NCBI GenBank assembly: GCA_019636285.1
Contig: JAHBXV010000008.1
Span: 62,001-126,000, forward strand
Length of the DNA: 64,000 nt
Direction: 5' to 3'
DNA from: Planctomycetaceae bacterium
Lineage (GTDB): Bacteria; Planctomycetota; Planctomycetia; Planctomycetales; Planctomycetaceae
Positions 2,490 through 62,133 of this stretch are shown here, piece after piece. Position numbers and translations under genes: made by a program. Under the pieces are notes generated by a model that was given only the letters and a program-made list of their open reading frames with translations, was not told the DNA's origin and ran no database searches. The stretch's first letter is position 1; each line of letters opens with the position of its first letter.

Positions 2490-3515
2490 TTGAGCGTTTC
2501 ATCTGGTTTCACGAGAACAGGTTATCGCACCGCGGGCTCGAGCAGGCTCGGCTTATTCACGAGCTTGGCACTGCTGCTCCTCTCGGTGGCGGCATGTCAG
2601 GACGGTCGCTCCTCCCAGCAGCCGTCGTTGACAGATGGTGCCGCGAACGGTCGTGTTCGCCTGGTCGCAACGACCAATCTCGTCGGCGATCTCGTCCGAC
2701 GAATCGCTCCCGCCTCATTCGAGATCAAGGTACTCATGGGGCCGGGCGTCGATCCGCACCTCTACACGCCGACCCGCAACGATGTCCGCGAATTGCTGTC
2801 CGCCGACCTCGTCTTCTATCACGGCCTCAATCTCGAAGGCCGCATGGCCCGGCAATTGGCTCAACTGAAACAGTCGGGACGACAACTCGCCGCCGTCACG
2901 GACATCCTTCCGCGCGGTCAACTGCGATCGATTGGGACCGGCCATGGAGAATTCGATCCCCACGTCTGGATGAGTGTTCCCCTCTGGACAGAGTGCGCTA
3001 AGCACGTTGCCAAGGTCTTGGCGGAGCGCTTTCCCGAGCAGGCTGCCGAAATCAGGAGTCGTTCCGAGAACTTGGTGAACGAATTCGCCCACTGCGACCA
3101 GGAGATTCGCGAACAGTTAAAACGCATTCCCGAGGAGCGTCGCGTGCTGGTGACCGCACACGACGCGTTCGAATACTTCGGCCACGATTACGGCATGCGG
3201 GTTCGTTCCGTGCAGGGAGTGTCGACGGAATCCGAAGCGGGCGTCAAAGATATCAGCGACCTGGTCACCTTCCTGGTGGAACAGAAGATCCCGGCGATTT
3301 TCGTCGAATCGAGCGTCAATCGCCGCTATATCGAAGCCGTGCAATCCGGGGTGGCGGCGCGTGGCGGCTCGGTTCGGATCGGCGACGAACTTTACTCCGA
3401 CTCGCTGGGACCAGCCGACGGACCGGCAGGAACCTATGAATCCATGATGCGTTCGAATCTCGGGTCCATCGTGCGGGCGCTGGGCGACAATGCCGAATCC
3501 GTACCGCGGAATTGA
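2490..3515 (+). CDS. Metal ABC transporter substrate-binding lipoprotein (ZnuA/TroA family)
   Basis: This is the periplasmic metal-capturing component. A signal sequence ends in lipobox LSVAAC with Cys36 as the lipidation site. The cluster A-I metal ligands are all visible: His90 in VDPHLYTPT, His158 in FDPHVWMS, His224 in [14 protein letters not shown] and Asp304 in LYSDSLG. The His-His-His-Asp set occurs in Zn and Mn binders, so the metal is not settled; no His-rich loop typical of many ZnuA proteins is present. The start is TTG 2490, the only reasonable in-frame start ahead of the signal sequence. It opens the operon, and the ATPase gene follows almost directly. Confidence 0.88.
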
Positions 3516-3523
3516 AGACTGCC

Positions 3524-4315
3524 ATGTCATCGGGAGCCAGTGACCTTCCCTCCTCCGTTCCGTTTCAGGTGCGCGATCTGACGGTCTCCTACCATCGCCG
3601 CCCCGTCCTGCGGGATGTCGACTTCGTCGCGAAACCGGAACGGCTCACGGCCCTCGTCGGTCCGAACGGCGCTGGCAAGAGCACGCTGCTCAAGGCGTCG
3701 TTGGGGTTGATTCCCATTGTCTCCGGCGATGTTCGTTTCTTTGGTCAGCCCCTCGCGGTCGTGCGGCATCGCGTCGCCTATGTGCCGCAGCGAACCAGCG
3801 TGGACTGGGACTTTCCCGTCACCGCCATTGATGTGGTCGTGATGGGGCTCTACCGAAGAATCGGCTGGTTTCGCCCGGTTCTCGCGCGGCATCGGCGCAC
3901 CGCCATGCAGGCGCTCGAGCAGGTGGAACTGGGGCCGTTCGCGTCTCGCCAGATCAGCCAGCTTTCCGGTGGCCAGCAGCAGCGGGTCTTTCTCGCACGC
4001 GCCCTGGTCCAGCAAGCCGATCTGTATCTCATGGACGAGCCTTTCGCCGGGGTCGACGCCGCCACCGAACGGGCAATTGTTGCCTTGATGCACGGTCTGC
4101 GAGCCGAAGGCAAGTCGGCGATCGTCGTCCATCACGATCTCCAGACAGTTCCGGAGTATTTCGACGACGTTCTTCTGCTCAATAACCGGGTCATCGCGGC
4201 TGGTCCGGTTTCCGAGGTCTTCACGCCCGAAAATCAGCGTCGCGCGTACGGAGGCAAACTCGTTCTGCTGGAAACGGTCGAGCATCAACTCAGCCTCGAA
4301 AGACCGCGGTCATGA
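3524..4315 (+). CDS. Metal ABC transporter ATP-binding protein
   Basis: This cytoplasmic ATPase drives the metal importer. Walker A (GPNGAGKST), the Q-loop region (AYVPQR), the signature LSGGQQQR and Walker B ([10 protein letters not shown]) appear in canonical order, followed by the H-loop VVHHD. The length (263 residues) fits the ZnuC/TroB/MntB group. ATG 3524 is chosen; an in-frame TTG at 3512 overlapping the previous stop is an alternative. The gene overlaps the first permease gene by 4 bp (ATGA), which implies translational coupling. Confidence 0.9.
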
Positions 4316-5697
4316 CGGGCTTGAGTTGGTTCGTCCTCGCGCAGAGAACTGCCGGCCTCCTGGACTACTCGACCCGGATGGTGCTGGCGGGAACGGTCCT
4401 CTTGGGGATCGCCGCTGGCATCGTGGGGGCGTTTCTCTTGTTACGTAAGCGATCTCTTGTCGGAGATGTCGCCAGCCACGCCGCCGTTCCGGGTCTCGCC
4501 GCCGCCTTTCTCATCTTCGAGATCAACTCTCCCGGCAGCGGTCGCTGGCTCCCTGGACTCTTGATCGGAGCCGCTGTGTCGGCCGCCCTGGCAATCTGGC
4601 TGACCGAACGCGTCAAGCGGATTCGCTACATCAAAGAAGATGCGGCCCTCGCCGTCGTCCTGAGTCTGTCGTTCGGCCTCGGCGTCTGCCTTTTGACCAT
4701 CATCCAGTCGTTTCCGTCCGGCAATCAGGCTCATCTGACCGACTTCCTCTTCGGGCGGGCCGCGGCATTGGTCGAAGGGGATGTCCTGACGCTGACCGGC
4801 GTGGCCGCGGGGGTGCTGGTCATGACTTTGGCCTTCTTCAAAGAGCTGGCGGTCCTGTCGTTCGATGAAGACTTCGCTGCCGCTCAGGGATGGCCGGTTG
4901 CCAAACTCGAACTTCTGCTGACCGCGCTCGTGGTCGTCGTGACCGTGACGGCCATGCAGAGCGTGGGGTTGCTACTGGCGGTTGCCCTCCTTATCACGCC
5001 CGCCGTCGCCGCGCGATTCTGGACCGATCGACTTCCCGGCCTGGTCGCCATTTCGGCTGGAATCGGCGCGCTGGCGTCAGCCGCCGGAACCATCGTGAGT
5101 GCCCAGATTCCTCGCCTCGGAACGGGCGCGCTGATTGTCGTCTTCGGACTGATTTTCTTTATCCTCAGTTGGTTCTTCGGCTCAAAACGAGGCTTGGTCT
5201 GGGCTTGGTGGGAGCGCCGTCGCGGCAACCGCGAAATTCACGAGGCCGACCTGTTGCGCGCCGTCTACGAATTGCTCGAAGCGAAGAACGACGTGGAAGG
5301 GAGACCCGGCCCGGAACGGCTCGCCGATTTGCCCTGGTCGCGCGCCGCGGTGGCCAGTTCGCTCACGTGGCCGGCGCGTCGCTTCGAGAGGATTCTCGCG
5401 ACTCTGCTGACCAGGGGATGGATCTGGCTCGACGCCGACGGTCACTATCGATTCACGCTGCATGGCGCTCGGCGGGCCATCGATACCGTCCGTCGCCACC
5501 GTCTCTGGGAACTTTACCTGCTGAATTACGCCGCGCTGCCGGCCGGACAAATCGACCGAGCCGCCGACATCACCGAGCACGGCCTCACCGATGCCGAAAT
5601 GGAACGGCTCGAAGGCCTGTTCGCGGCCCGTGGAGACCAGTCGCAGGTTCCTGCCAGCTTTCACAAGATCGACGCGCGCGAGGGGGAACCGGCATGA
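4312..5697 (+). CDS. Metal ABC transporter permease fused to a DtxR-like domain (first of two)
   Basis: Residues about 15-290 form an ABC-3 family permease with eight or nine hydrophobic segments ([13 protein letters not shown] and [15 protein letters not shown] are typical motifs). Residues about 308-445 form a second, soluble unit: a winged helix-turn-helix (helices around 310-370, wing at DADGHYRFT), then a DtxR-type dimerisation and metal-binding segment with HRLWE (His396, Glu400) and DITEH (Asp419, Glu422, His423). A bare permease would be about 280 residues, whereas this is 461. The closest precedent I know is chlamydial YtgC-YtgR, where the repressor is released by cleavage. Whether this domain binds DNA, senses metal in place, or is cleaved is inference. 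The gene overlaps the next by 4 bp. Confidence 0.88.
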
Positions 5698-7097
5698 GCG
5701 AACTGCTCTCCTCGCTGTTTGACGCGAACTCGCTCGACGCGCGCATCGCCCTCACGGCGATCCTGGCCTCGATTGCCTGCGCCCTCCCGGGGACACTGCT
5801 CGTCCTCAGACGCCAAAGCCTTCTGGGCGACGCTCTCGGTCACGCCCTGCTCCCCGGAATTGTCCTGGGCTACCTCGCGACCAACTTCTTGATCGACGAT
5901 TCGCCCACCGGCACCATGGCCGCCTGGGCCCCGTCATTGCGCATCACGGCCATGTTGGTCGGAGCGGCCATCGCGGGGATCCTCTGCGCGGTGCTGGCGA
6001 CCATTATCGAAAAATCGGGCCGGGTCGAACCCTCCGCGGCCCTCGGCGTGGTCTTCACCGGCCTTTTCGCGATCGGATTGATCCTCGTCCGGCGCTATGC
6101 CGACGATGTCGACATCGACGCGTCGTGCGTCCTCTACGGCCATCTGGAAACCGTCGTCTTCGAGACCTGGCCGGGGACCACGCTCCCCATGGCGGCTGTC
6201 TCGGCCCTCGCGGCGATCGTCTTCAACGCGGCTCTGCTCATCGCCTTCTACAAAGAATTGAAGCTCGGCACGTTTGATCCCGAATTCGCCCGCGCCGTGG
6301 GAATTCCCGCGGGCCTGATCGACATTGGCCTCGTCGCCGCGACCGCCATGACGGTTGTGGCCACCTTCGAGAGTGTCGGGAGCATTCTGGTTCTGGCAGC
6401 CCTCGTCGTTCCAGCGGTGAGCGCGCGACTGCTCGTCAACCGGTTCTTCTCGCAGATCGTCGTCTCGATCGTCGTCGCGACACTCGCCGCGGTGGGGGGC
6501 CATCTGCTGGCGATGGCCGTTCCCCATCTGGTGATCCTGTCGTCCGAAAATCGTCCCCTGGAAGTCGGGACCGCCGGCGCGATCTCCCTCGTTTCCGGAC
6601 TCATGCTCGTGGCTGCCGCGGCCTTCGGACCCACGAATGGCATGGTCTGGAAAGCGTGGCGGCTTCGAGCCCTGCGGCAGCGCGTCTTCCAGGAAGATGT
6701 GCTCGGCATTCTCTTCCGACTGGCCGAGCGCGGTGTCGAGGTCGACGAAGCCTGCCTCTCGGGGCAGGTTGCCGGTTCCCTGGATCGCTCGCCCGCCGCC
6801 ATTCAACGATGCGTGCGGCAACTCCAGTCATCCGGTCTCGTCGACCAGACCAACGGGATCTGGCGGCTTACCGCTGTTGGAACACAGCGGGCCACAGAAA
6901 TCGTTCGCTCGCACCGGCTCTGGGAGACCTACCTGGCTCGCAATCTGGGCTGGAACGACGAGGCCAGCCATCGCGTCGCCGAACGGTTCGAGCACCACAC
7001 CTCGGGTTTCGTCCGCGAGAACCTCGCGGACGAACTCTCCCACCCAGGCCGCGACCCGCAGGGACACGAAATTCCCCCGATCGCGGACGCCCCATAA
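5694..7097 (+). CDS. Metal ABC transporter permease fused to a DtxR-like domain (second of two)
   Basis: The start is ATG 5694, overlapping the previous stop as ATGA; the frame stays open upstream but that stretch is out-of-frame coding of the first permease. Residues about 15-315 are an ABC-3 permease (RRQSLLGDALGHALLPG, FYKELKLGTFDPEFA). Residues about 330-467 again resemble DtxR/MntR: helices with QEDVLGILFRLAERG, a recognition-helix-like RSPAAIQRCVRQLQSSGLV, HRLWE (His407, Glu411), HRVAERFEHH (His426, Glu430, Glu433, His434), and a DPQGHEIP tail matching the DPxGxPIP end of DtxR proteins. Metal ligands are better preserved than in the first permease. With both permeases carrying the domain, the assembled transporter would display a pair of DtxR-like units. 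Confidence 0.88.
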   Translation: MSELLSSLFDANSLDARIALTAILASIACALPGTLLVLRRQSLLGDALGHALLPGIVLGYLATNFLIDDSPTGTMAAWAPSLRITAMLVGAAIAGILCAVLATIIEKSGRVEPSAALGVVFTGLFAIGLILVRRYADDVDIDASCVLYGHLETVVFETWPGTTLPMAAVSALAAIVFNAALLIAFYKELKLGTFDPEFARAVGIPAGLIDIGLVAATAMTVVATFESVGSILVLAALVVPAVSARLLVNRFFSQIVVSIVVATLAAVGGHLLAMAVPHLVILSSENRPLEVGTAGAISLVSGLMLVAAAAFGPTNGMVWKAWRLRALRQRVFQEDVLGILFRLAERGVEVDEACLSGQVAGSLDRSPAAIQRCVRQLQSSGLVDQTNGIWRLTAVGTQRATEIVRSHRLWETYLARNLGWNDEASHRVAERFEHHTSGFVRENLADELSHPGRDPQGHEIPPIADAP

Positions 7098-61989: not shown

Positions 61990-62133
61990 TCCCGGGTTGG
62001 GAAGCGCGTCGGTGGGGGAAATCGGTGATTTACACCCCCTGCCCCGTCCCTCACACTGTTTGGGTGCCGCCGATGGCGCGCAGCCGTCCGTGCCAGGGCG
62101 ATCGCCGTCGGCCCTTGGGAGTCCCTCCGAAAA

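Follow-up and report, generated by a model that had tools for sequence, protein, structure and literature searches.

DtxR/MntR-fold tails on both permeases of a planctomycete ABC metal importer as probable metal-feedback domains

The 64,000-nucleotide stretch analyzed here (the window; positions 62,001 to 126,000 of contig JAHBXV010000008.1 from a Planctomycetaceae bacterium, assembly GCA_019636285.1) encodes in one operon a solute-binding protein (SBP) of the ZnuA family, an ATP-binding cassette (ABC) ATPase and two ABC-3 permeases, which is the gene set expected of an ABC-3 metal importer; by family it belongs to the manganese/iron type. The permeases, here termed A and B, are encoded at 4312-7097, as an earlier note made from the sequence alone had placed them, by genes that overlap by 4 bases. 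Both are overlong, with 461 and 467 residues against 258-290 in PsaC, and both end in a tail that adopts the DtxR/MntR fold. We propose that these tails are probably metal-sensing feedback domains of the importer rather than regulators of its transcription.

The domain make-up of the tails was established by profile searches. In permease A the Pfam ABC-3 domain (residues 22-289, E 5.4e-54) is followed by the Fe_dep_repr_C domain (PF02742) at 384-434, with 34.6 bits (cut-off 27), E 1.9e-8 and coverage of positions 3-53 of the 70-position profile. In permease B, ABC-3 at 18-275 (E 7.5e-39) is likewise followed by PF02742 at 393-461, with 68.7 bits, E 4.4e-19 and coverage of positions 1-69. NCBIfam models for MntR/DtxR match both tails below their own cut-offs, and among solved chains the sequence matches are DR2539 (8pvt, E 3.1e-11) for tail B and SloR (5cvi, E 6.9e-6) for tail A. 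AlphaFold models built from alignments of 67 (B) and 58 (A) sequences have mean pLDDT (predicted local distance difference test) values of 93.2 and 92.2, respectively. Superposition on DtxR gives Z 19.6 and a root-mean-square deviation of 1.8 over 136 residues for tail B, and Z 14.6 and 2.6 over 131 residues for tail A; helical models can reach the latter Z by chance, although here the sequence match concurs. The earlier suggestion of DtxR/MntR-like C-terminal domains on both permeases is thus borne out by both profile and structure, and its HRLWE, EH and DPxGxxIP-like motifs were all located (Table 1). The winged-helix fold is preserved in both models, while the C-terminal end of tail A is modeled poorly (last-block pLDDT 40). 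In each model the membrane part passes without a break into the tail: a single helix (residues 317-345 in B, 295-325 in A) spans the joint and takes in the first DtxR helix, the pLDDT at the joint is about 95 or more, and neither model shows a flexible linker between permease and tail. If the beginnings of the aligned ranges are taken as reference, DtxR residue 10 corresponds to D335 in B and to D313 in A; in DtxR itself Met10 is a primary-site ligand (PMC4805248). The architecture is not an assembly error, because it recurs in the genomes of relatives and in 80 named loci.

Table 1. Importer operon and landmarks of the permease tails, in window coordinates
Feature	Positions	Strand	Basis or remark
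18-bp perfect palindrome TTTTTGATTAATCAAAAA	2444-2461	none	operator-like TTTTGA-N4-TCAAAA; the proposed TTG start of the SBP follows ~30 bp downstream
Solute-binding lipoprotein, ZnuA/PsaA family	2490-3515	+	Pfam ZnuA, E 1.2e-71
ABC ATPase of the metal importer	3512-4315	+	Pfam ABC_tran; best NCBIfam match manganese ABC MntA, below cut-off
Permease A with C-terminal DtxR-like tail, 461 residues	4312-5697	+	open reading frame, Pfam, AlphaFold model
Tail A, residues 300-461	5209-5694	+	AlphaFold model and DtxR superposition
Tail A degenerate winged-helix region, residues 343-381	5338-5454	+	column conservation; PF01325 absent
Tail A HRLWE, residues 396-400	5497-5511	+	ligand counts among A tails
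Tail A metal-site stretch D415...D419..E422-H423	5554-5580	+	ligand counts among A tails
Permease B with C-terminal DtxR-like tail, 467 residues	5694-7097	+	open reading frame, Pfam, AlphaFold model
Tail B, residues 318-467	6645-7094	+	AlphaFold model and DtxR superposition
Tail B degenerate winged-helix region, residues 355-391	6756-6866	+	column conservation; PF01325 absent
Tail B HRLWE, residues 407-411	6912-6926	+	ligand counts among B tails
Tail B metal-site stretch H426...E430..E433-H434	6969-6995	+	ligand counts among B tails
Tail B DPQGHEIP (DPHGxxIP motif), residues 454-461	7053-7076	+	tail alignment

Directly upstream of the operon, at 1370-2347, lies a gene for a WYL/WCX-domain regulator detected with Pfam.

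The metal ligands of MntR are D8, E11, H77, E99, E102 and H103 (PMC6860424). At the positions of D8, H77, E99, E102 and H103, tail B of the window has D335, H407, E430, E433 and H434, and tail A has D313, H396, D419, E422 and H423; both thereby carry, by sequence, the ligand set of DtxR/MntR repressors, with E11 not preserved in the tails. We examined 81 B and 65 A tails chosen by score (more than 40 bits against tail models) together with 29 of 30 free MntR proteins, L021 being omitted as a very long frame. PF02742 is present in every member of the three sets, and the seven metal-ligand columns carry 4.04 bits in B tails and 4.12 in A tails, compared with 4.26 in free MntR. As these tail sets had been chosen by score, the ligands were recounted in every permease whose permease domain is followed by 80 or more residues. 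In this unselected count H77, E102 and H103 are jointly retained in 95/105 A tails, 114/120 B tails and all 7 tails of single permeases.

The individual residues behave similarly. For tail A, the H and E of HRLWE are found in 65/65 each of the score-chosen tails and in 97 and 100 of the 105 unselected ones, and D415, D419, E422 and H423 in 65, 64, 65 and 64 of 65 and in 95, 91, 99 and 96 of 105. An aspartate thus stands at the E99 position in 91/105 A tails and at that of DtxR H98 in 95/105. For tail B, the H and E of HRLWE are present in 81/81 each and in 117 and 116 of 120, and H426, E430, E433 and H434 in 81, 55, 81 and 79 of 81 and in 116, 70, 117 and 116 of 120; aspartate occupies the D8 position in 109/120, while glutamate is seen at E99 in 70/120. 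The named loci had been chosen with patterns including VR[SA]HRLWE, so the conservation of this stretch in B tails is biased upward; A tails were not selected by their own tail sequence. Other near-invariant residues in the score-chosen sets lie in the first helix: R342 (81/81) and E345 (78/81) in B, and R316, E320 and E323 (64/65 each) in A. Tail A further has a conserved W353 and a C-terminal SPH, which reads SFH in the window.

The DNA-reading part presents a different picture. Neither the DNA-binding domain PF01325 nor FeoA was matched in any of the 81 B or 65 A tails, as opposed to 29/29 free MntRs for both. Likewise, a local hidden Markov model (HMM) of the MntR winged helix matched none of 228 distinct fused tails above 25 bits, as against 214 for the metal-domain HMM. 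Such a missing match is by itself insufficient proof that DNA binding has been lost, because the winged-helix HMM matches only 49 of the 65 proteins that carry this metal domain without being permeases, the 16 missed ones including small DtxR-like proteins (L200, L201, L224). The argument rests, therefore, on column conservation and on the comparison with the operator below. When 176 sequences were aligned jointly, the information content of the recognition-helix columns was 3.92 bits for free MntR, 1.43 for B tails and 1.97 for A tails, with mean pairwise identities of 0.86, 0.23 and 0.32; the free MntRs come from closer relatives, so the fair comparison is that of ligands with helix inside each tail set. 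Long frames matching PF01325 were considered as fusions with an intact DNA-binding domain and rejected: the G071 frame (832 residues) contains an MntR-like protein without a permease, and the G120 C180 frame (601 residues), likewise above the PF01325 cut-off, has no match to the local models. This check covered matches above the cut-off, three weaker ones (G075 C22, G150 C38, G167 C157) lying outside it. Since the tails lack both PF01325 and a conserved recognition helix, we do not class them as DtxR/MntR repressors. The sequences suggest instead decay of the DNA-reading part alongside a largely retained metal site; what persists of the winged helix anticipated in the earlier note is the fold, with no conserved DNA reader.

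The palindrome upstream of the SBP gene helps to assign transcription to another protein. It is the sole match in the window at up to 3 mismatches, none of 100 shuffles yielded one, and its half-sites TTTTGA-N4-TCAAAA are also found in the SBP promoters of relatives, so that the operator proposed earlier at 2444 stands as a conserved element. We scored 33 promoters (G020, with only 61 bases, was dropped). In the 24 positive ones, shuffles reached the observed score in 0-5.5% of 200 trials, the highest value being that of G018. Of the 26 genomes with a strong free MntR, 23 match at least 10 of the 12 operator positions, against 1 of the 6 without one (Fisher p 0.0015), where the threshold was set after the scores were known, MntR status was judged by eye from the profile-search results and the genomes are not independent. 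The exceptions are G019, G052 and G055, which have a free MntR with operator scores of 6, 9 and 8 of 12, and G014, with 11/12 in a 78% complete genome lacking a strong free MntR. In L174 (G008) and L005 (G023) the operator sits between divergent free mntR and SBP genes, and in G023 the PF02742 search revealed no fused permease. In ten genomes whose operator scores 12/12, the recognition helix of MntR is nearly constant, [VL]SPG[TS]VTSM[ML]K[TS]L; the tail helices differ from one genome to another and lack this motif (B tails were compared in all but G013, which has none, and A tails in all but G022). The genome of the window has its own free MntR on contig C51 (L071). Taken together, these observations assign the 2444-2461 operator most probably to the free MntR; because the operator tracks that protein, we rejected it as an indicator of what the tails do.

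These data bear directly on the idea, raised in the earlier note by analogy with chlamydial YtgC, that the tails are cleaved off to become soluble metal-dependent repressors of their own operon acting at the 2444 palindrome. The domain order is the same as in YtgCR, whose repressor is cleaved according to PMC5599777 and PMC7755916; the winged-helix fold is kept in the models, the ligands are mostly kept, and G014 has a good operator with no strong free MntR found. However, PF01325 is missing from all the tails examined, a constant operator is paired with tail helices that differ between genomes as free MntR helices hardly do, and operator scores are only 5, 8 and 7 of 12 in G007, G005 and G028, which have tails and no strong free MntR. 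Moreover, the unbroken helix without a flexible linker argues against cleavage. We hence consider a released repressor very unlikely: the likeness to YtgC holds for the domain order and not for the inferred function, and of the two options raised earlier, cis regulation of transport is the better one.

The operator motif is also found before genes for pseudopilin-like proteins with RRGFTLIELLVVI starts, both in the genome of the window (L154, C70:31079-31094) and in relatives (L159, L163, L165, L172, L175, L176, L178, L179), which suggests a wider MntR regulon. It further occurs upstream of similar exported, possibly outer-membrane, proteins with NEPL[VI]TDRPDFTEASSTVGQGVAQ (L173, L182, L183). 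G028 (L046, L135), which is 98% complete, has both permeases fused and no free DtxR-family match in the PF02742 search.

Fused permeases are widespread around the window. PF02742 matches were obtained in all 59 genomes searched near it, and in its own family 27/37 genomes have a strong free match (E < 1e-29), with one or two fused permeases in most genomes as well. The 80 named loci are the top-scoring 80 of 589 selected for their similarity to permease B; they overlap in part with the G-numbered genomes, only exact repeats having been removed. A B tail is present in all 80. The A permease domain can be seen in 68 loci, with a tail in 64 and none in 4; in the other 12 it is truncated or not visible. 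Among the groups in their record titles are Planctomycetota, Kiritimatiellae, Sumerlaeota, a Verrucomicrobia bin and Desulfosarcina/Desulfobacteraceae, and almost all of the records are metagenome bins. The fusion is also seen on A alone (L066, L072), on B alone (L060, L069, L088 and L138, among others) or on the only permease seen (L054, L058, L061, L206, L207, L224, L225). In the permease tree, A, B and single permeases form three clades. The tail tree, which with 146 columns, SH-aLRT (Shimodaira-Hasegawa-like approximate likelihood ratio test) support only and many open forks is informative for broad grouping, places the tails outside the free MntR clade and mostly in accord with their permease clades, and the earlier remark that the two tails differ from each other is supported. 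In L220, L216 and L218 the tails of A and B group together or across groups, hinting at an exchange of tails between the permeases.

Related domains are found on other proteins, in further genomes belonging to the phylum. ABC ATPases with a C-terminal PF02742 domain and no PF01325 match are encoded at L211:3238-4344, L212:3465-4568 and L209:1301-4123, those of L211 and L212 adjoining FTR1/FtrD-like and FtsX-like proteins. DtxR-FeoA proteins without a PF01325 match occur beside FeoB at L210:3358-4065 and L213:3768-4805; the L213 protein has an N-terminal membrane segment resembling the end of an ABC-3 permease and two FeoA stretches.

Control of Mn/Fe/Zn ABC importers is commonly seen as acting on transcription. 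We consider it likely that the tails of permeases A and B act instead as metal-feedback (transinhibition) domains of the importer, with transcription left to the free MntR. A built-in feedback brake is preferred over a hidden gene repressor because the DNA reader appears decayed and the metal site mostly kept, and we also count in its favor the related PF01325-less domains on ABC ATPases and beside FeoB. Under this proposal, a DtxR/MntR-type metalloregulator would have been joined to ABC-3 permeases long ago, after which the metal-binding and dimerization part would have remained strongly constrained, while the DNA-reading part, once freed, would survive as a folded scaffold. Filling of the sites by cytosolic Mn2+ (or Fe2+) might then make tails A and B close on each other beneath the permease dimer. 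The continuous helix from the membrane part to the metal-binding helix could relay this closure to the permease and ATPase, so that import is slowed; transcription would be handled apart by the free MntR at TTTTGA-N4-TCAAAA. Metal binding by the tails and the kind of metal are presumed, and transinhibition itself is proposed from the anatomy of the proteins. A heterodimer of tails A and B is perhaps to be expected given the pairing of the domains, and a brake is assumed over an activator from homeostatic logic only. Alternatively, the tails might be cytosolic acceptors that receive Mn2+/Fe2+ from the permease and pass it on, leaving transport unregulated, as would be compatible with the retention of ligands in most tails and with the position of the tails, where the last helix reaches the cytosol. 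We regard this as unlikely, since a simple acceptor requires neither the DtxR dimerization module nor the DPHG..IP motif kept in B; the occurrence of a related domain on an ABC ATPase also speaks against it.

Several observations weigh against metal feedback. The PF02742 match of the window tail A is the weaker one and covers the profile partially. The full set of H77, E102 and H103 is missing in 10/105 A and 6/120 B tails, degenerate A tails lacking at least one core ligand are present in L053, L056, L057, L059, L036, L037 and L039, and fewer than 80 residues follow the permease domain in 8 A and 2 B permeases. Two working sensors are therefore not obligatory. As the degenerate A tails keep their full length, and no ligand loss was listed for the B tails that accompany them, the A tail may be a partner able to lose sensing, possibly a pseudo-sensor. 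The persistence of such tails at folded length, and the mostly separate grouping of A and B tails alongside their permeases, would also suit an assembly clamp that merely holds the A/B heterodimer, the metal being structural or, in some A tails, dispensable. Against this we note the permeases that have no tail and the retention of ligands in most tails while most other positions drift, and we judge such a clamp improbable. In addition, the winged-helix region of the tails is net positive, at about +3 versus -0.8 in free MntR, making nonspecific contact with DNA or lipid possible, and the B tails of the window and of G001 retain SPAxI where MntR has SPGTV. The charge, seen in both tails, would agree with an uncut, membrane-tethered tail that contacts DNA at the membrane, no conserved operator being read; the weakly constrained recognition-helix columns are unlike those of a specific reader, and we hold this to be hardly probable at all. 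Finally, the nearest experimentally studied relative, YtgCR, is reported to yield a DNA-binding repressor. The ligand losses in A tails and the positive charge slightly lowered our confidence in the feedback proposal and raised the standing of the assembly clamp and of the tethered binder.

More broadly, DtxR-type sensors without a DNA-reading part might form a class of metal valves, joined repeatedly to unrelated metal importers (single, A and B ABC-3 permeases, an FTR1-linked ABC ATPase and proteins beside FeoB) and gating uptake by cytosolic metal, with the window combining two different sensors in one heteromeric gate; we put this forward tentatively, with doubt slightly prevailing. The permease-DtxR fusion as such is already known (YtgCR; 11 phyla according to PMC5599777). 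What looks new is the decayed DNA reader, the presence of tails on both permeases and the occurrence of comparable domains on an ABC ATPase and in neighbors of FeoB; among open-licence PMC papers, judged by title and the start of the abstract, we found none on DtxR-type domains as transport gates. If the proposal is true, many bacteria, in Planctomycetota and in the other groups named in the record titles, would halt metal uptake at the protein level by means of a domain borrowed from a gene repressor, the permease-DtxR fusions of 11 phyla should not all be taken as hidden transcription factors, and a testable route would be at hand from a metalloregulator to an allosteric transport gate.

Among known systems, Chlamydia YtgCR (CT069) has the same layout as the window permeases: a single frame encodes an ABC-3-type permease and, after it, a DtxR-type domain with conserved metal ligands. 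It is encoded in the ytgABCD metal-import operon (PMC5599777, PMC7755916), its tail is cleaved and represses, and orthologous fusions are recorded in 11 phyla (PMC5599777). There, YtgR binds DNA and is cleaved off, and one fused permease is described, whereas the window has both permeases fused, no DNA-binding signature and a separate MntR; the comparison with YtgCR is by its description. The free regulators MntR, DtxR and IdeR (represented by DR2539, SloR and DtxR) resemble the tails in fold and in the positions of the metal ligands, but the tails are permease-bound and without PF01325 and FeoA matches. PsaBC-type manganese importers match in permease fold (PsaC: Z 33.6 for A and 29.2 for B) and, by family, in the kind of substrate; unlike the window permeases, PsaC chains have no tail. 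Substrate-sensing domains on ABC importers are known from the methionine and molybdate cases (PMC10710835). The proposed action of the tails, a cytosolic substrate-sensing dimer that slows the importer, would be like that of the MetNI C2 and ModC domains described there. Those domains have other folds, and the brake domains of MetN and ModC sit on the ATPase, as in the ATPase-DtxR proteins of L211, L212 and L209, whereas the tails of the window are borne by the permeases.

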